Assembly (NCBI RefSeq): GCF_036347055.1
Contig: NZ_CP108882.1
Coordinates: forward strand, 3,794,501 to 3,858,500
DNA length: 64,000 nucleotides
Source: Streptomyces sp. NBC_00820
GTDB taxonomy: Bacteria; Actinomycetota; Actinomycetes; Streptomycetales; Streptomycetaceae
Direction of reading: 5' to 3'
The position numbers were made by a program, and so were the translations under genes. Of this stretch, positions 1-38,274 are shown one piece after another (within the stretch, counting starts at the first letter, position 1; each line of letters opens with the position of its first letter). The notes beneath the pieces are model-generated. The model worked only from the letters and a program-made list of their open reading frames with translations. It searched no databases and had not been told where the DNA came from.

Positions 1-1970
1 GCGAAGTCGCTTCCAGGGAAGACCAGTTCACCGGCCGGGGCGAGTTCGCCGTCCTCGTCGTGGAGCGCGAGCGCGCCGAGCCAGGGCTCGTCGCCCGGCT
101 CCAGGCCCGCGTCGCGGACGAGCGCGAGGACGGTGTCGGCCAGTTCCTCGGCGTCCGGAGCGTCCTCCTCCCACATCGCCCCGCCCTCGTCGTCGAGCGA
201 GGCGGCCACGGCGGCCCGCACCTGCGGGGTGGTCAGCACCGCGCGCGGGCTCGCGGGCAGCGCGCCCAGCTTCTCCAGCAGCGGGTGCACGGCGTCCTCG
301 TGGGCGACCTTGAGCCCCAGCCGGGCCAGGACGTCGAGGTCGAGGGCGGCGGCGTCCGCGGCGGGCAGCAGCACCTGGCGGGGCCCGATGGTGGTCCGGC
401 CTCCCCCGGCGAGCGGCACCGGCAGCCCCGAGAGGCGGTCGGGGTCGACCCCGGCGAGGCTGTCGTACAGCCGCCACCACCACTCCGGGTCCTTCTCCAG
501 ACCGGCGAGCCGGTCGATGGCGTCGGCGAGCGGGATCCGGGCGACCCCGAGGGTGCGCAGCTCGGAGCGGCGTTCGAGCCCGGCGGGGAGCAGGGTGGGC
601 AGCACCTCGGCGAGCACGCGCACGGTGTCGGCGCCCGCGCCCTCCACCACTTCGGCGTCGCGCGGCCGCAGCGCCTCCGGCAGCCCGTCGTCGCCCTCGT
701 CGCCCTCGGTGCCTTCGCCGCTCTTGGCGCCCTTGGCGTCGAGGGCAGGCGGCAGGAACGCGGTCCTGGGCAGCCGTTCGAGGATGGCCTGGCGCAGCGC
801 GCCGTCCAGCTCGCTCTTGCCGAGCGGTCCGGGCACGAGGTCCACGGCGCCCTCGGTCACCGGGCGCCAGTCGGCGAGCAGTTCGGCGTAGGCGTCCGCC
901 GCGCGCAGCACCAGGAAGTCGGTCAGCGGACCGGGGGCCGCGTGCCGCCGGGAGGTGTCCAGCGGGAAGGACGCGATGAGCAGGGCGGGCACGCCGAGGG
1001 GCTCGTCGCTGGGGGTGGGGGCGTGCACGACGGGGCTGGTACGGGGGCGGACCGGCCGCCCGTCCTCGTCGGCCGGTACGGCCCAGGTCACCGACCAGTG
1101 CGGGCGCAGCCGTTCCTCCACCGGGCGGTCGGCGAGCAGCTCCGGGGTGAGCGGTCCGTGCGCGGCGACGGTACGCCAGCGGGTCGTCCCGTCGCGCGAG
1201 TCCTCGACCACGGTGACGGCGCCCTCGGTACGGCGGCGCAGGATGCGCGGGGCGCCGTCGCCGACCTCCACGATCACTTCCTCCAGCCCCGGCAGGGCGA
1301 GGAGCAGCGCGTCGTCGACGGCTTCCAGGAGACGCTCGGCGAGGTCGGCCGCGGCCGCGTCCCGCAGCGGCAGGATGACGGCGGTGTCGTACGGCTCCGG
1401 GGCCGAGCCCTCGGCAGCGAAGGGCAGCCGCAGCAGCGGGACGTGTCCGTCGCGGCGCCGGACCTCGTCACCGAGGCCGGGGCTGTGCCGGGCGATGTCG
1501 GCGGCCAGCTCGCGCGCCTCGGCGAGGGACCAGCGCACGCCCCCGTGCCGGCCGACGAGCGCGGGCTCGTCCGTGACGGAGAGGACGGCCGCGAAGCCGA
1601 CGCCGAACCGGCCCACCGTGGCGTGCTCGTCGTACCGCTCGCGCTTGGCGGAGGCGCGGAGCGTGGACAGCGACTCGACACCGGCCGCGTCCAGCGGGGC
1701 GCCCGTGTTCGCGGCCACCAGGACGCCGTCGCGGAGGGTGAGCCGCAGCCGCCCCGGCGTCTTCGCGCGCGCGGCGGCGTCGGCGGCGTTCTGCGCCAGC
1801 TCCACCACGAGCCGGTCCCGGTAGCCACCGAGGACCAGGTCCTCCTCCGCGTTGGCGTCCTCACGGAACCGGGCGGGGCTGGTGGCCCAGGCGTCGAGGA
1901 CGCCGCGCCGCAGTCGGGCGGTGCCGAAGGGGTCGGCGCCCTCGGCCGCCGGCCGCACGTACTTGCTCAC
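1..1970 (-). CDS. Hsp90-like (GHKL/sacsin-type) ATPase protein, C-terminus cut by window edge
   Basis: The reading frame runs leftward from a GTG at 1970 and is still open at base 1, so only about 656 N-terminal residues are visible. GHKL ATPase motifs are clear: an N-box with Glu57, Asn61 and Asp64, a 'DGVLVAANTG' segment at 81-90, and the glycine loop 'VGRFGVGF' at 119-126. This arrangement matches bacterial proteins carrying the sacsin N-terminal Hsp90-like domain; their substrates are not established. GAGGAG lies 7 nt before the chosen GTG. In-frame GTG (1976) and ATG (1985) starts exist but leave no room for that ribosome site. Chaperone activity is inference from the fold. Confidence 0.85.
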   Translation of the reverse strand, partial: MSKYVRPAAEGADPFGTARLRRGVLDAWATSPARFREDANAEEDLVLGGYRDRLVVELAQNAADAAARAKTPGRLRLTLRDGVLVAANTGAPLDAAGVESLSTLRASAKRERYDEHATVGRFGVGFAAVLSVTDEPALVGRHGGVRWSLAEARELAADIARHSPGLGDEVRRRDGHVPLLRLPFAAEGSAPEPYDTAVILPLRDAAAADLAERLLEAVDDALLLALPGLEEVIVEVGDGAPRILRRRTEGAVTVVEDSRDGTTRWRTVAAHGPLTPELLADRPVEERLRPHWSVTWAVPADEDGRPVRPRTSPVVHAPTPSDEPLGVPALLIASFPLDTSRRHAAPGPLTDFLVLRAADAYAELLADWRPVTEGAVDLVPGPLGKSELDGALRQAILERLPRTAFLPPALDAKGAKSGEGTEGDEGDDGLPEALRPRDAEVVEGAGADTVRVLAEVLPTLLPAGLERRSELRTLGVARIPLADAIDRLAGLEKDPEWWWRLYDSLAGVDPDRLSGLPVPLAGGGRTTIGPRQVLLPAADAAALDLDVLARLGLKVAHEDAVHPLLEKLGALPASPRAVLTTPQVRAAVAASLDDEGGAMWEEDAPDAEELADTVLALVRDAGLEPGDEPWLGALALHDEDGELAPAGELVFPGSDF

Positions 1971-2031
1971 GTTCACTCTCCTCATCGGCTGAGGACGAAG
2001 GTACCGCCCCGTGAGCGTGCGGCCGCGCGGG

Positions 2032-2223
2032 TCAGCGCTGGGCGGCGTACGAGACGAAGACGGCCCAGGTCTCCGGCGTGACGGCGAGTCGGGGGCCCTG
2101 TAGGTGCTTGGAGTCCCGGATGTGGATGGTGGCGGGGGTGGGGGCGATCTCTATGCAGGAGTCGCCTTCACTGCTGCTGCTGTAGCTGCTCTTGAACCAC
2201 GCCAGATCGGAAGTGCGGATCAC
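2032..2223 (-). CDS. DUF397 protein
   Basis: 63 residues with the DUF397 pattern: 'WFKSSYSS' near the start, a Cys at the 'DSCIEIA' strand, and an 'RDSK' turn before the final Trp-containing helix. DUF397 proteins in Streptomyces, including BldB relatives, are small and mostly of unknown biochemistry, and are usually paired with an XRE-type regulator. That is the case here: the ATG overlaps the stop of the upstream regulator as ATGA (2220-2223), so the two are translationally coupled. Confidence 0.92.
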   Translation of the reverse strand: MIRTSDLAWFKSSYSSSSEGDSCIEIAPTPATIHIRDSKHLQGPRLAVTPETWAVFVSYAAQR

Positions 2224-3095
2224 GTTGCCCCCAGCAGTTGCTCGATGAAGGACGCCGACTCACGGGGTGTCAGCGCCTGAGCGCGGATGATGCCATACCG
2301 CAGTTCCAGGATACGGAGATGCCTCGGCTCGTCGACCGGACGGCCGCCTGCCACCACCGGCGACCGCCCCACCGCCGAGCCGTCGGCGAACTTCAGCACC
2401 TCGATTCCCCCGGCCACTCCGGCGTGCTCATCGCGGTCCATCGGCATCACCTGGAGCTCCACGTTCCGCAACCCCGCCGTCTCCAGCAGGCTTTCGAGTT
2501 GCCGGCGCAGCACCGGCCGTCCCCCGAGCGGACGTCGTAACGTCCACTCCTCCAGGACGAAGCTGATCTCGGGAGCGGGGTCCCGCTCGAAGACCGCCTT
2601 GCGCGCCGCTCGCGCGGCGACGAACCGCTCGACCTCGTCGCTGCTGTAGGCGGGCCGCCGCATCCGCAGCAACGCCCGCGCGTACTCCGGCGTCTGCAAC
2701 AACCCATGGATGTTCAAGGGGTCGTACAGCTGAAGCTCGACCGCCGTCGCCTCCAGCTTGGCCAGATCCCGCACCTTCTTCGGGTACCGGACCTTGGCCA
2801 CGTCCTCCTTCATCGCGGCGAGCAGCCCGCCCGCCGCCAGCACCTCGTCCGCGTTGTCCAGGTACTCGGGACGAGGAATCCGCTTCCCGGCCTCGATCTT
2901 GTAGACCATGTCCTCGCCGTAGCCGACGGACCTGCCGAAGTCGGCGGCGCGGATGCCCAGCGCCTCACGCCTCAGTCTCAGTTGCCGTCCGACGGTCGCG
3001 ACCACGGCCACGCCCCAGTCGTCGCTCGGATCGACCTCCCAGCCCGGCTCGTCCTCCTCGGTCCTGAGCCGGACCGTTCCCGATTCCACCGACAT
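2220..3095 (-). CDS. XRE-family regulator with C-terminal DUF5753 domain
   Basis: Encodes 291 residues. A helix-turn-helix spans about residues 34-88 ('RQLRLRREALGIRAADFGRS' is its first half), followed by a DUF5753 ligand/partner domain from about 105 to the end. Such proteins are the regulator half of the very common Streptomyces XRE/DUF397 pairs, sometimes described as antitoxin-like. ATG at 3095 was chosen because GGAGGGG lies 4 nt upstream; the frame is open for 17 more codons without a better site. It overlaps the DUF397 gene by 4 nt. The target genes cannot be told from the sequence. Confidence 0.92.
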   Translation of the reverse strand: MSVESGTVRLRTEEDEPGWEVDPSDDWGVAVVATVGRQLRLRREALGIRAADFGRSVGYGEDMVYKIEAGKRIPRPEYLDNADEVLAAGGLLAAMKEDVAKVRYPKKVRDLAKLEATAVELQLYDPLNIHGLLQTPEYARALLRMRRPAYSSDEVERFVAARAARKAVFERDPAPEISFVLEEWTLRRPLGGRPVLRRQLESLLETAGLRNVELQVMPMDRDEHAGVAGGIEVLKFADGSAVGRSPVVAGGRPVDEPRHLRILELRYGIIRAQALTPRESASFIEQLLGAT

Positions 3096-33383: not shown

Positions 33384-33737
33384 GCCTAACTCCCCTATTA
33401 CTGGCCCTTGCACAGATCCACCCTTCGCGGACCCGGGTCAGACCTCGCCCCCCATCGGTCGGGGGCGTGCGCCGGAACGCGTCGACCGCGGCCGAATGTA
33501 TCTGCCCAACTGCCCTCTGCAACAGGTCAATCGGACGAGAATTCCAGAAGAGCGCGGTCCGGAATGTGGCGAGAATTCGCCTGAATTCAGGGCAAGTCGG
33601 GCCCTGCAAAAACCACAAATGCCGCAAACAACCCGGGCATTTTGGCTACTTCTTATCGGGCGCGCGGCATGAATCCAGTGCTCCCGACCAGTGGCCCAGG
33701 AGCGCGTTCCCCAACTCTACCGTGCTCAATCACGCAG
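33384..33737. other. 354-bp intergenic region, probable cold-shock leader
   Basis: Noticeably richer in A+T than its surroundings. It holds a perfect palindrome CCTGAATTCAGG (33580-33591) and several GAATTC-containing segments. It should carry the promoter and a long 5' leader of the cold-shock gene. No convincing -35/-10 pair with correct spacing and no reading frame were found. Confidence 0.5.
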
Positions 33738-33774
33738 AATGGCCCCCTCCGCTTCTCTCACGGAGGGGGCCATT
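33738..33774 (-). terminator. Terminator of the metM-metO unit
   Basis: AATGGCCCCCTCCG (33738-33751) pairs with CGGAGGGGGCCATT (33761-33774), a 14-bp perfect stem with a 9-nt loop, 48 nt after the metO stop. Confidence 0.9.
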
Positions 33775-33822
33775 CGATGAACAGTCGGTAACCGCGATTA
33801 CCGAAGGTAATACCGGGCCCTG

Positions 33823-34098
33823 TCAGCCGCCCGCGACGGCCGGAATGATGGAGACGCCGGCACCGTCCGGGGTGACCGTCTCCAGGCCCCGCTCGAAACG
33901 CACGTCGTCGTCATTGACGTACACGTTGACGAAACGGCGCAGCTTGCCCTGGTCGTCCAGTACCCGGGCGGCGATCCCCGTGTGGTGCTTCTCCAGGTTC
34001 TCGATGACCTCGGCCAGCGTCGCCCCTTCGGCGGCGACCTCGGCCTGACCACCGGTATAGGTACGCAGGATGGTCGGAATGCGAACGGTCACGCTCAT
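33823..34098 (-). CDS. metO: MoaD/ThiS-fold sulfur-carrier protein, probable MetO
   Basis: 91 residues of beta-grasp ubiquitin-like fold ending in the essential Gly-Gly ('IIPAVAGG'), the site of C-terminal thiocarboxylation. The start overlaps the stop of the threonine-synthase-like gene as ATGA (34095-34098), so the two are coupled and share the SAM riboswitch. In Streptomyces such a pair (MetM with carrier MetO) has been reported to convert O-phosphohomoserine to homocysteine. A molybdopterin or thiamine role is unlikely, because no such genes are near. Confidence 0.85.
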   Translation of the reverse strand: MSVTVRIPTILRTYTGGQAEVAAEGATLAEVIENLEKHHTGIAARVLDDQGKLRRFVNVYVNDDDVRFERGLETVTPDGAGVSIIPAVAGG

Positions 34099-35378
34099 AC
34101 GAGGCCAGCCTCTCGGAAGGATTCCAGGGTCGGGCGGATGACGGCGGTCGGACCGGTGCCGGCCACCGCGTCGAGGGTCTTGAGGCCGTCGCCGGTGTTG
34201 AGGACGACCGTGGTGAGCGTCGGGTCCAGGGCGCCGCTCTCGATGAGCTTCTTCGTGACGCCGACCGTCACCCCGCCCGCCGTCTCGGCGAACACGCCCT
34301 CCGTGCGGGCCAGCAGCCGGATGGCGGCCACGATCTCCTCGTCGGTCACGTCCTCCACCGCACCGCCGGTGCGGCGCGCGATGTCGAGGACGTACGGCCC
34401 GTCGGCCGGGTTGCCGATGGCGAGGGACCTGGCGATGGTGTCCGGCTTCTGCGGCCGTACGACGTCGTGGCCCGCCTTGTACGCGGCCGACACCGGCGAG
34501 CAGCCCTCGGCCTGTGCGCCGAAGATCCGGTACGGCCGGTCCTCGACCAGCCCGAGCGCGACCAGCTCCCGCAGCCCCTTGTCGATCTTCGTGAGCTGGG
34601 ATCCGGAGGCGATCGGAACCACGATCTGGTCGGGCAGCCGCCAGCCGAGCTGCTCGCAGATCTCGTACGCCAGGGTCTTGGAGCCCTCCGCGTAGTACGG
34701 CCGCAGGTTGACGTTGACGAAGCCCCAGCCCTCGCCGACCGGGTCGCCGATCAGCTCGGAGCAGAAGCGGTTCACGTCGTCGTAGTTGCCCTCGATGCCG
34801 ACCAGCTCACCGCCGTAGACGGCGGCCATGACGATCTTTGCCTGCTCCAGGTCGTGCGGGATGAACACGCAGGAGCGCAGGCCCGCGCGGGCCGCGGCGG
34901 CGCCGACCGCGCCGGCCAGGTTGCCGGTGGAGGAGCAGGACAGGGTGGTGAAGCCGAAGGCGCGGGCGGCCTCCAGGGCCTGGGCGACGACGCGGTCCTT
35001 GAAGGAGTGCGTCGGGTTCCCGGAGTCGTCCTTCACGTACAGCCCGCCGGTGACACCCAGCTCGCGGGCGAGGTTGCGGGCCTCGACGAGCCGGGTCCAG
35101 CCGGGGTTGAGGTTGGGCTTGGCGGCCACGTCGGCGGGGACGGGCAGCAGGGGCGCGTAGCGCCAGATGCTCGCGGGGCCGGACTCGATCCGCGCGCGCA
35201 GTTCCTCGGTGTCGTACGCCGAGAAGTCGTAGGCGATCTCGAGGGGGCCGAAGCACTCCTCGCAGGCGAACACCGGGCCGAGCGGTACTTGGTGGCCGCA
35301 CTCGCGACAGCTCAGGGCGGCGGCGGGGCCGAGGTCGACGGTGGGAGTGCTCTGGGGGGCGACGGTCTGCACAGCCAT
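34095..35378 (-). CDS. metM: Threonine-synthase-like PLP enzyme, probable O-phosphohomoserine sulfhydrylase MetM
   Basis: 427 residues of the threonine synthase family. An N-terminal zinc ribbon has Cys24, Cys27, Cys39 and Cys42. The PLP lysine is Lys127 in 'NPTHSFKDR', with the phosphate loop 'SCSSTGNLAGAVGAAAA'. Classical annotation would be ThrC. The SAM-I riboswitch upstream and the translationally coupled sulfur carrier indicate a methionine-pathway role, as described for MetM, which takes sulfur from carrier MetO. A separate true ThrC would be expected elsewhere in the genome. ATG 35378 was chosen over an upstream Met 11 codons earlier, inside the riboswitch. Confidence 0.82.
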   Translation of the reverse strand: MAVQTVAPQSTPTVDLGPAAALSCRECGHQVPLGPVFACEECFGPLEIAYDFSAYDTEELRARIESGPASIWRYAPLLPVPADVAAKPNLNPGWTRLVEARNLARELGVTGGLYVKDDSGNPTHSFKDRVVAQALEAARAFGFTTLSCSSTGNLAGAVGAAAARAGLRSCVFIPHDLEQAKIVMAAVYGGELVGIEGNYDDVNRFCSELIGDPVGEGWGFVNVNLRPYYAEGSKTLAYEICEQLGWRLPDQIVVPIASGSQLTKIDKGLRELVALGLVEDRPYRIFGAQAEGCSPVSAAYKAGHDVVRPQKPDTIARSLAIGNPADGPYVLDIARRTGGAVEDVTDEEIVAAIRLLARTEGVFAETAGGVTVGVTKKLIESGALDPTLTTVVLNTGDGLKTLDAVAGTGPTAVIRPTLESFREAGLV

Positions 35379-35397
35379 GGAGGCGAGGCCCTTTCTC

Positions 35398-35540
35398 CTC
35401 ATCTTCCTCACGACGCATCTCGCCGTGAGACGGATTTGGCACCTTCCCTAGCCGGGAGCCTCGCGGATGAGAACGAGTGACCGACTGGAGGGTTGCCGGG
35501 GCTTCATCGGGCCGTATCCCTCTGCCCCTCTGGATGAGCG
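35398..35540 (-). promoter_or_regulatory. SAM-I (S-box) riboswitch
   Basis: On the minus strand the 5' arm CTCATCCAGAG (P1) is followed by GGGGCAGAGGGA, CCCGATGAAGCCCC and CGGCAACC. Then come AAGGTGCCAA and a P4-like CGTCTC/GAGATG hairpin, ending in GAAGATGAG, which closes P1. These are the S-box landmarks in order. The 3' arm ends about 20 nt before the metM ATG, so SAM binding could hide the ribosome site (translational control). The length, about 140 nt, is longer than minimal S-boxes because P3 is extended. Confidence 0.9.
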
Positions 35541-35652
35541 GTATGTAGTTGTGTGAACGCTCTTGACCCCCGACATGCGATGGTCATCGGCGTTGCTCAA
35601 GACTGTAACCGAAGGCCAGGACAGTGGAGAGAGTCGTCCGAACCGCGAGACG

Positions 35653-35677
35653 GGTCACACGGTTTCCGCGTGTGACC
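35653..35677 (+). promoter_or_regulatory. Inverted repeat in the gpgS upstream region
   Basis: GGTCACACG, 7-nt loop, CGTGTGACC: a 9-bp perfect dyad 89 nt before the gpgS start. It could be an operator or a leader hairpin. Confidence 0.45.
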
Positions 35678-35765
35678 ACCGCCCCTCAGCACCACCCCCG
35701 AGCGCCACACCTGAGCACGACACCTGATCACGTCCCCCGATCACGACAGTGAGGAGCCACCGACC

Positions 35766-36710
35766 GTGCTGGAAGAAGTCGAGCGCTGGCTGGCCACCCG
35801 CTCCTGGTCCGTGGCCGACCGCCCCCTGCACCGTGTCCTGGCCGCCAAACAGCGCACCGGCCAGTCCGTCTCCGTCGTCCTTCCCGCACTCAACGAGGAG
35901 GAGACGGTCGGCGAGATCGTCAGGGTCATCCGTCACGACCTCGTGGAGCAGGCCCCGCTGATCGACGAGATCGTCGTCGTCGACTCCGGCTCCACCGACC
36001 GCACCTCCGAGGTCGCGGCCGCCGCCGGAGCGCGGGTCGTGCACCGCGACGACATACTCCCGCGCCTGCCCGCCGTACCCGGCAAGGGCGAGGTGCTGTG
36101 GCGCTCCCTGCTGGTCACCGGCGGGGACATCGTCTGTTTCGTCGACGCCGACCTCAGGGAGTTCTCCGCGGACTTCGTCCTCGGCATCGTGGGCCCACTG
36201 CTCACCGACCCTGACGTCGACCTGGTCAAGGCGATGTACGACCGTCCGCTCGCCGGTGCGAGCGGGCAGGGCGGCCGGGTCACCGAGCTGATGGCCCGCC
36301 CGCTGCTGAACATGCACTGGCCGCAGCTGGCCGGCTTCGTGCAGCCGCTGGGCGGCGAGTACGCGGCGCGCCGCTCGCTGCTGGAGCAGCTGCCGTTCCC
36401 GGTGGGCTACGGCGTGGAGCTGGGCATGCTGGTCGACGCCCTGCACCTGGTGGGCCTGGACGCGCTGGCCCAGGTCGACGTCGGCGTGCGCAAGCACCGG
36501 CACCAGGACGGGCAGGCGCTGGGCCGGATGGCCGCCGCGATCTACCGCACCGCGCAGCTCCGCCTCGCGCGCGGCCACCTCGTGCGGCCCGCCCTCACCC
36601 AGTTCGAGCGGGGCGAGGACGGGTTCGAGCCGCGCACCTACTCGGTCGACACCGAGGAGCGGCCGCCGATGGCGGAGATCGCGGAGTACGCCGCGCGCCG
36701 GGTCGCGTGA
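35766..36710 (+). CDS. gpgS: Glucosyl-3-phosphoglycerate synthase
   Basis: 314 residues from GTG 35766 with GAGGAG upstream. GT81-type features: 'VSVVLPALNEEETVGEIV' (nucleotide-sugar binding), 'VVDSGSTDRT', 'DIVCFVDADLREFS' (DxD metal site), then 'FVQPLGGEYAARR' and 'DVGVRKHRHQD'. The enzyme makes glucosyl-3-phosphoglycerate, precursor of glucosylglycerate (compatible solute) and of methylglucose lipopolysaccharides in mycobacteria. It lies beside otsA, as in other actinobacteria; no gpgP is present in the window. Confidence 0.93.
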   Translation: MLEEVERWLATRSWSVADRPLHRVLAAKQRTGQSVSVVLPALNEEETVGEIVRVIRHDLVEQAPLIDEIVVVDSGSTDRTSEVAAAAGARVVHRDDILPRLPAVPGKGEVLWRSLLVTGGDIVCFVDADLREFSADFVLGIVGPLLTDPDVDLVKAMYDRPLAGASGQGGRVTELMARPLLNMHWPQLAGFVQPLGGEYAARRSLLEQLPFPVGYGVELGMLVDALHLVGLDALAQVDVGVRKHRHQDGQALGRMAAAIYRTAQLRLARGHLVRPALTQFERGEDGFEPRTYSVDTEERPPMAEIAEYAARRVA

Positions 36711-36846
36711 GCCGTGGCACGCACGGTGGTGTGAACGGCCGGGTCGCGTGAGCCGTCGGCCGGGCGCCGGAGTGCGGCCGTATACAAGCCCCTTTCGGGG
36801 CGGACCGTACGTTTGAGCGTTTACGGGCCGGGCTAGGTTCAGGACC

Positions 36847-38274
36847 ATGGCTTCCACGCAGGGTGCTGAGGTGCTGGTCGCGTCCAACCGCGGCCCGGTT
36901 TCGTACGAGGTGGACCCCGACAGCGCCGACGGCGCGCTGCTGGCCAGGAGAGGCGGCGGCGGACTGGTCTCGGGACTGTCCGCCATCGGACCGGACACGG
37001 ACGCGGTGTGGGTGTGCGCCGCGCTGGGCGACGGCGACCGGGAGGCCGTACGGCGTGCGCGGGGCGGACTGCTGCCGGCCGAGGACACCGGCGGGCAGCG
37101 GGTGCGGATGCTCGGCATCGACGCCGACGTGTACGCCGACGCCTACAACGGCATCGCCAACTCGACGCTCTGGTTCGTCCACCACATGCTGTACCAGACC
37201 CCGCTGGAGCCGGTCTTCGACGCGGAGTTCCGGCGGCAGTGGGAGTCGTACCGGGCCTACAACCGCGCCTTCGCCGAGGCGCTCGCCGAGGAGGCGGCCG
37301 AGGGCGCGGCGGTGCTGATCCAGGACTACCACCTGGCGCTCGCCCCCCGGATGCTCCGGCAGCTGAGGCCCGACCTGCGCATCGGGCACTTCTCGCACAC
37401 CCCGTGGGCGCCGCCGGACTACTTCCGGCTGCTGCCCGACGACCTCGCGGCCGAACTGCTGACCGGCATCCTCGGCGCCGACCGGGCGGCGTTCCTGACC
37501 CGGCGTTGGGCGGACGCGTTCACCGAGTGCTGTCACGAGGTGCTCGGACCCGGCATTCCGTCCGGGACCCGGATCGGGGTGCACGGGCTCGGCGCGGACG
37601 CGGACTTCCTGCGTGAACGCGCGCACCGGGCGGACGTGGCGGAACGGATGGCCGCGCTGCGCGAGGAGGTCGGCGAGGGACGCCGGACGATCGTCCGGGT
37701 GGACCGCACCGAGCTGTCGAAGAACATCGTGCGGGGGCTGCTGGCCTACCGGCAGCTGCTCCGGGACCGTCCCGAGTGGCGCGAGCGGGTGGTGCACGTC
37801 GCCTTCGCGTATCCCTCGCGGCAGGACCTCGCGGTGTACCGCGACTACACCGACGAGGTGCGCCGGGTCGCCCAGGAGATCAACGCCGAGTACGGAACGC
37901 CGGGTTGGACGCCCGTCGTGCTGCACGTCAAGGACGACTTCGCCCGCTCGCTGGCCGCCTACCGGCTCGCGGACGTCGCCCTGGTCAATCCGATCCGGGA
38001 CGGCATGAACCTCGTCGCCAAGGAGGTGCCGGTCGTCTCCGACGAGGGGTGCGCGCTGGTGCTGTCGCGGGAGGCGGGGGCGTACGAGGAGCTGGGCGAC
38101 GACGCGATCGTGGTGAACCCCTACGACATCACGGGTACGGCCGAGGCGCTGCACGAAGCGCTGAGCCTGCCGGCGGCGGAGCGGGCCGAGCGGTCGAAGA
38201 GGCTGGCCGCCGCCGGTACGGCGCTGCCTCCGGCGCAGTGGTTCCTGGACCAGCTGGGGGCGCTGGACCGGTGA
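36847..38274 (+). CDS. otsA: Trehalose-6-phosphate synthase
   Basis: 475 residues of GT20: 'VASNRGPVS', 'GGGGLVSGLS', 'NSTLWFVHHMLYQ', 'VLIQDYHLALAPRMLRQLRP', 'IGHFSHTPWAPPDYFR', 'VDRTELSKNIVRGLLAY' and 'VNPIRDGMNLVAKE' are the conserved substrate loops. Joins UDP-glucose (or GDP-glucose) to glucose 6-phosphate. TAGGTT (36834-36839) stands 7 nt before ATG with no Shine-Dalgarno: leaderless. otsB lies next to it in the opposite direction, with ends 30 nt apart. Confidence 0.95.
   Translation: MASTQGAEVLVASNRGPVSYEVDPDSADGALLARRGGGGLVSGLSAIGPDTDAVWVCAALGDGDREAVRRARGGLLPAEDTGGQRVRMLGIDADVYADAYNGIANSTLWFVHHMLYQTPLEPVFDAEFRRQWESYRAYNRAFAEALAEEAAEGAAVLIQDYHLALAPRMLRQLRPDLRIGHFSHTPWAPPDYFRLLPDDLAAELLTGILGADRAAFLTRRWADAFTECCHEVLGPGIPSGTRIGVHGLGADADFLRERAHRADVAERMAALREEVGEGRRTIVRVDRTELSKNIVRGLLAYRQLLRDRPEWRERVVHVAFAYPSRQDLAVYRDYTDEVRRVAQEINAEYGTPGWTPVVLHVKDDFARSLAAYRLADVALVNPIRDGMNLVAKEVPVVSDEGCALVLSREAGAYEELGDDAIVVNPYDITGTAEALHEALSLPAAERAERSKRLAAAGTALPPAQWFLDQLGALDR

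Follow-up and report, generated by a model that had tools for sequence, protein, structure and literature searches.

A threonine-synthase-like gene and a Gly-Gly sulfur carrier gene under a SAM-I riboswitch: a probable MetM/MetO homocysteine operon

Introduction

Does a gene that resembles threonine synthase, preceded by a SAM-I riboswitch and followed by the gene of a small sulfur carrier, serve the synthesis of threonine or that of methionine? In S. albulus, Hasebe et al. (2024, doi 10.1128/aem.01247-24) reportedly found that MetO thiocarboxylate and O-phosphohomoserine are used and that the sulfur-carrier gene lies downstream of metM; that work is also said to stress strains without the canonical homocysteine genes. 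The accessible part of PMC12172450 cites Hasebe et al. 2024 for the homocysteine synthase MetM of Streptomyces, places a SAM riboswitch upstream of the S. albulus metM and mentions metO. The first-pass annotation of the locus studied here, which lies in a window of 64 kb (the whole stretch of DNA that was analysed), had read it as such a pair. We examined its enzyme, carrier and leader, the related genes elsewhere in the genome and their distribution over the class.

Results

The gene pair

The operon is encoded on the minus strand of the window, with the following gene features:

34095..35378, minus strand: metM, PLP enzyme of 427 aa, ATG at 35378, stop at 34095 (Pfam, NCBIfam, solved relatives)
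35253..35309, minus strand: zinc ribbon, C24-x2-C27 ... C39-x2-C42 (alignment of 69 MetM rows)
34998..35000, minus strand: Lys127, the expected PLP lysine (motif NPTHSFKDRVV aligned with NPTGSFKDRGM of ThrC)
34095..34098, minus strand: ATGA overlap of the metM stop and the metO start (sequence)
33823..34098, minus strand: metO, ThiS/MoaD-fold sulfur carrier of 91 aa with C-terminal Gly-Gly, VAGG (Pfam, solved relatives, carrier tree)
33738..33774, minus strand: 14-bp perfect hairpin closing the operon (-37.2 kcal/mol, z -5.77)

MetM matched the Pfam PALP domain with 228 bits. The four cysteines of its N-terminal zinc ribbon (C24, C27, C39 and C42) showed a conservation of 98% or higher across 69 aligned MetM-type proteins, the one of the window among them (L198, cut by a contig end, was left out), and they were missing from the canonical threonine synthase (ThrC) of the same genome. 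The first description of the gene, as a PLP enzyme of threonine synthase type with such a ribbon, was thus confirmed. Lys127 is presumably the PLP-binding residue, the role that this lysine has in the fold family. MetM also scored above the cut-off of the NCBIfam thrC model TIGR00260 (263 vs 167.1 bits), which explains a threonine synthase annotation, and its five best solved relatives were threonine synthases. Among the best 120 of 7998 scored database relatives, all named rows were threonine synthase and 10 were nameless, just as it had been foreseen that pipelines would label the gene thrC.

MetO matched the Pfam ThiS domain with 62.1 bits, and its two best solved relatives were 4n6e (a ThiS/MoaD family protein) and 3dwg_C, which we take to be the mycobacterial CysO. 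The fold, the Gly-Gly end and the ATGA junction (34098-34095) had all been described correctly; the interval first given for the gene pair, 34095-35540, leaves metO (34098-33823) almost wholly outside. The operon had also been called closed by a terminator: the 14-pair hairpin is real, but it has no U-run (33774-33738), and a terminator scan of 33500-35900 returned no intrinsic terminator with one. By eye, no protease gene adjoining metO was seen among the listed reading frames of the window.

MetO is 62% identical to the CysO of the same genome. In a carrier tree of only 91 columns, 34 MetO rows and 12 CysO rows (the one of the window's genome included) were split by one branch with an SH-aLRT of 99; MetO falls outside the CysO clade and does not lie beside cysM and mec.

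The opposite strand carries, upstream of the MetM locus (35766-38274), a glucosyl-3-phosphoglycerate synthase gene (442 vs 262 bits) and a trehalose-phosphate-synthase-like gene below cut-off. A similar frame was seen by eye beside the riboswitch fragment of genome G084 (L214), which suggests a conserved gene order.

Threonine, cysteine and homocysteine genes elsewhere in the genome

A search for a second threonine synthase recovered the canonical ThrC, with 327.8 bits the best of five TIGR00260 matches in the genome, two of which exceeded the cut-off. Its gene is flanked by hom (558.8 bits vs a cut-off of 205) and thrB (215.9 bits vs 168.25) in the cluster at L054 6875-10668. This separate ThrC, together with the SAM riboswitch and the adjacent Gly-Gly carrier at metM, upholds the proposal that metM is not the main threonine synthase gene. 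CysO (92 aa, ending in GGMA), CysM and a JAB-domain protease are encoded in a cluster of their own, and the genome also encodes a MoeZ that combines a ThiF with a rhodanese domain.

Genes for O-acetylhomoserine use were recovered as well: metY (824.9 bits, cut-off 703) and metX (534.3 bits, cut-off 475) are intact and adjacent at genome positions 359010-361519 (L053 9011-11520). Since both are intact, MetM was rejected as the sole homocysteine route, and a strain that loses only metM might still grow without added methionine; the auxotrophy suggested earlier as a check is therefore no safe prediction. The genome encodes two possible homocysteine routes, of which only the MetM route carries a SAM-I riboswitch. 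An Rrf2-family regulator gene was observed upstream of metYX on the opposite strand (L053 8068-8544, minus strand; TIGR00738, 110.2 vs 73.3 bits).

MetM/MetO could then be a backup in this organism, with homocysteine made mainly through metY-metX from O-acetylhomoserine and sulfide. This we regard as rather unlikely. The two genes are intact and adjacent with high scores, and no Rfam match at gathering threshold was found in the 19 kb around them; against this, metX is patchy in the genus of the window (strong in 7 of 22 genomes, weak in 1), whereas MetM and the riboswitch occur in 22 of 22. Regions at chromosome ends are typical of accessory genes, and metYX, about 0.36 Mb from the contig start, would occupy such a position if the contig start is a chromosome end.

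The SAM-I riboswitch leader

The leader of metM comprises the following elements:

35396..35540, minus strand: SAM-I (S-box) riboswitch aptamer (cmscan, RF00162)
35533..35538, minus strand: 5' strand of the P1 helix (Rfam alignment; six standard pairs)
35398..35403, minus strand: 3' strand of the P1 helix (Rfam alignment; six standard pairs)
35388..35397, minus strand: best Shine-Dalgarno-like stretch (duplex scan, -9.2 kcal/mol)

In a cmscan of the window, the S-box-like leader that had been noticed by inspection matched RF00162 with 78.5 bits over the full length of the model (1-108; gathering threshold 44.4, E 8.9e-17) and was the sole Rfam match at gathering threshold within the 64 kb. The genome, a single contig of 8,106,388 bases, held this one RF00162 match. 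The riboswitch ends 17 nt before the metM ATG; the Shine-Dalgarno-like stretch lies immediately 3' of P1, and the start codon follows 9 nt further. Two upstream in-frame starts, GTG 35411 and ATG 35402, were rejected, as that frame is interrupted by a stop codon within P1 in 11 of the 20 named Streptomyces loci.

We compared this geometry over 61 loci with a SAM match upstream of MetM (40 picked loci, 20 named Streptomyces loci and the window). As a rule, the first start codon found 5-25 nt 3' of the aptamer was taken as the start, and Shine-Dalgarno-like stretches were sought only in this vicinity. In 60 of the 61 loci the gap from the last base of the aptamer to the start codon was 7-19 nt, and the best Shine-Dalgarno-like stretch of these 60 overlapped the 3' strand of P1 in 31 and abutted it in 29, a relation that follows partly from the limit that the gap length sets to the scan. 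An intrinsic terminator does not fit into such a gap, and control of metM is therefore most likely translational. This argument rests on geometry. The folding comparison was neutral: in the energy model the ribosome-binding stretch had a mean unpaired probability of 0.51 when P1 was formed and of 0.52 when it was not, which gives no support to P1 closing all of it, and a change was seen only in the P1 strand and the bases right beside it.

The sole geometric exception, L203 (genome G100), had a shortened aptamer match of 62 nt and 49.1 bits, no start codon within 25 nt, a nearest candidate MetM start about 200 nt past the aptamer, and hairpin-like sequence after the aptamer. Several other genomes of its genus (g64) also gave weak riboswitch E-values. 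Near the MetM locus of two genomes of family f14 we observed matches to the c-di-AMP riboswitch (L174 385-561 and L202 2956-3112).

SAM-I switches of Bacillota are mostly transcriptional, and this, like the features of L203, counts for a leader that acts on transcription, through a terminator or Rho, instead of translation. Such a mode is improbable here, given that L203 is one locus in 61, that the gap is just 7-19 nt in the other 60, and that riboswitches of Actinomycetota tend to the translational type, as stated in the introduction of PMC12452182.

Distribution over the class

The sample comprised 246 genomes of the class. MetM was taken as a best match below 1e-100, strong MetX as better than 1e-90 (8 weaker MetX rows were counted as absent), and carriers at E <= 1e-15; all co-occurrence counts are raw and ignore relatedness. 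Fisher p-values on these counts ignore it as well and are not read as probabilities. MetM was present in 164 genomes and the riboswitch in 168: both were found in 162, neither in 76, the riboswitch only in 6 and MetM only in 2. Within each of families f5, f11, f26 and f34, some genomes had both and others had neither, the exceptions there being G067 (f5) and G065 (f34).

The two genomes with MetM and no riboswitch, G015 and G067, are 78% and 76% complete. Six genomes had the riboswitch without a strong MetM match (G076, G084, G025, G002, G031 and G065). Two of these lie at contig ends. The riboswitch of G076 is followed by a MetM-like frame that the contig cuts off behind residue 126, and the riboswitch match of G084 covers bases 4-53 of its contig. 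In G025 (L210), a small genome without MetM, the riboswitch (1501-1588) stands directly before metY (1704-3014; TIGR01326, 593.9 vs 495.1), that is, the same sensor is placed on the other homocysteine route. The riboswitch of L211 (G031), L212 (G065) and L213 (G002), also without MetM, precedes other frames, by eye one cysteine-desulfurase-like and one ion-channel-like; the latter gave no NCBIfam match.

Strong MetX was found in 72 of the 82 genomes without MetM vs 70 of the 164 with it; 236 of the 246 held MetM and/or strong MetX, and 10 held neither. At least two carriers of CysO/MetO type were present in 118 of the 164 MetM genomes vs 3 of the 82 others, while 43 MetM genomes had one such carrier and 3 had none. 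Finally, a further match to the MetM query at E <= 1e-20 occurred in 162 of the 164 MetM genomes (exceptions, by eye, G130 and G160).

Comparison of MetM with the ThrC of the genome

The MetM of the window differs from the ThrC of the genome in several motifs, as seen in the pairs NPTHSFKDRVV/NPTGSFKDRGM, RPYYAEGSKT/NPVRIEGQKT, PIASGSQL/PVGNAGNI and ETAGG/EPASA (MetM/ThrC). Among 132 near-invariant positions of the MetM family, 58 were different in, or absent from, the ThrC of the genome, and MetM has neither the canonical ThrC motifs (NPTGSFKDRGM, NPxRxEGQKT, VGNAGN) nor a place between hom and thrB. The arginine in NPVRIEGQKT of ThrC helps to bind the substrate phosphate. Arg226, invariant in MetM, lies near the position of this arginine and might take over its phosphate-binding role.

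It is very improbable that metM encodes a second true threonine synthase under SAM control, balancing methionine against threonine while the carrier serves something else: the TIGR00260 score, the solved relatives and the in vitro threonine synthase activity of a cyanobacterial relative favour it, whereas a canonical ThrC already stands with hom and thrB, nearly all MetM genomes (162 of 164) hold a second match, the motifs of the active-site region are unlike those of the genome's ThrC throughout the 69 MetM rows, metM is linked with a carrier and complementary to MetX, and an enzyme of threonine synthesis would be an unexpected target for a SAM sensor. That relative, from Microcystis, is 51.6% identical to the S. 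albulus MetM, has threonine synthase and deaminase activity, and was judged not fully MetM-like, according to the accessible part of PMC12172450.

MetM loci with and without MetO

MetO was downstream of MetM in all 110 close loci (the window and 109 relatives). The genes overlapped by 4 nt in 33 of them, and MetO ended exactly in GG in 100 and had one extra residue in 10. Among the 40 loci picked across families, MetO was present in 27, absent in 12 and cut by a contig end in 1; 7 of the 27 MetO proteins carried one or two residues beyond GG (L179, L182, L192, L194, L195, L204 and L208).

The 12 MetO-less genomes were searched for carriers. One carrier was found in 10 genomes and two in G012, the second with just 43% identity; G074 had none, and in all 11 carrier-bearing genomes the close carrier lay beside cysM and mec. 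VAGG occurs in all of these CysO-type carriers; it is the C-terminus of 5, and 6 extend 2 to 14 residues further (L216, L220, L222, L223, L225 and L226). The GGMA end of CysO in the window's genome is likewise an extension, next to the JAB-domain protease gene. To be thiocarboxylated, such extended carriers, like the MetO proteins with extra residues, would first have to be trimmed; for those of CysO type the protease encoded next door is the presumed agent.

On a MetM tree of 49 rows, absence of MetO required five changes, at least three of them by starred branches; the tree was built by a quick method, and its root is unsure, with the very long ThrC outgroup joining L188. The position of the close carrier by cysM and mec in MetO-less genomes and the repeated absence of MetO on the tree lead us to a tentative proposal, to which we give somewhat less than even odds. 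In several actinobacterial lineages, a riboswitch-bearing MetM without its own MetO may draw its sulfur from CysO, so that one carrier would feed both cysteine synthesis by CysM and homocysteine synthesis by MetM; on this view MetO would be a copy that evolved separately for a dedicated role and freed the two syntheses from each other, and SAM would turn off metM and metO together at the level of translation. Other ThiS/MoaD proteins could serve the MetO-less MetM instead. MetM without MetO was not found discussed in the literature searched, in which subscription papers were mostly out of reach. The MetO-less relatives make carrier specificity directly testable.

Discussion

We assign this operon to the MetM/MetO route, with SAM probably lowering the translation of metM and metO, at a probability of about 0.87. 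Membership is argued from the riboswitch, the separate ThrC, the downstream carrier, the co-occurrence of MetM and riboswitch, the extra carriers, the complementarity with MetX and the presence of MoeZ. The leader geometry and the further matches to the query in MetM genomes add to this. Counting against it are the 12 of 40 picked MetM loci without MetO, the passing of the thrC model, the intact metY-metX, the other activities of the Microcystis relative, the neutral folding comparison and the lack of a correction for relatedness in the co-occurrence counts. By analogy, the gene pair very probably makes homocysteine with protein-bound sulfur; the second ThrC, the SAM riboswitch and the adjacent Gly-Gly carrier support this reading, first proposed from the window, and the reaction itself is transferred from the S. 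albulus work.

In the proposed mechanism, the terminal Gly-Gly of MetO is probably adenylated and thiocarboxylated by MoeZ, the likely activator. MetM would form a PLP intermediate from O-phosphohomoserine, its presumed substrate, taken out of the threonine pathway, and would add the carrier sulfur to yield homocysteine, which methionine synthase would convert to methionine. SAM, the end product, would bind the leader, where P1 is predicted to form at the very site of ribosome binding, 17 nt away from the start codon. Formation of P1 would lower translation of metM and, via the overlap, of metO, the direction and mode being those that the leader geometry suggests.

The closest known system is MetM/MetO of S. 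albulus, presumably of the same genus, which shares the ThrC-like enzyme, the downstream carrier gene and the upstream SAM riboswitch (the latter according to the part of PMC12172450 available). The present genome differs in that it also has metY-metX, so that the canonical homocysteine genes are not missing. No row named S. albulus was among the best 120 listed in either of two protein searches; indirect support for orthology comes from the genus of the window, in which all 22 sampled genomes carry a close MetM and one riboswitch. In S. lividans TK24, an RNA-seq-supported RF00162 copy precedes the two-gene unit SLIV_16930-SLIV_16925, the same Rfam family before a similar unit; in the accessible part of PMC8079986 it is filed under 'threonine biosynthesis', without a link to methionine. 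We infer that SLIV_16930 and SLIV_16925 are metM and metO.

The mycobacterial CysO-CysM-Mec cysteine route, with activation by MoeZ (PMC3227635, available part), likewise combines a related Gly-Gly carrier, a PLP enzyme and MoeZ. The partner of MetO is ThrC-like and not CysM, and MetO and CysO stand on opposite sides of the well-supported branch of the carrier tree. Canonical ThrC shares the fold family and PLP core with MetM, whereas the N-terminal zinc ribbon, the other motifs, the carrier partner and the riboswitch control set MetM apart. In Wolinella succinogenes, MetY reportedly uses O-acetylhomoserine and the thiocarboxylate of the carrier HcyS to make homocysteine (Krishnamoorthy and Begley 2011). 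Homocysteine from a carrier thiocarboxylate would be common to both systems; here the partner is of ThrC type, the substrate is probably O-phosphohomoserine, and metY lies elsewhere in the genome.

The operon is a clear further example of the route described in 2024 and not a new system; its interest lies in the class-wide linkage of MetM and riboswitch, the short switch geometry and the question of a shared carrier. Under the threonine synthase label, many actinobacteria may seem to lack a complete methionine pathway; 94 of the 164 MetM genomes in the sampled class have no strong MetX match. The riboswitch before the gene offers a simple marker for correcting that label.
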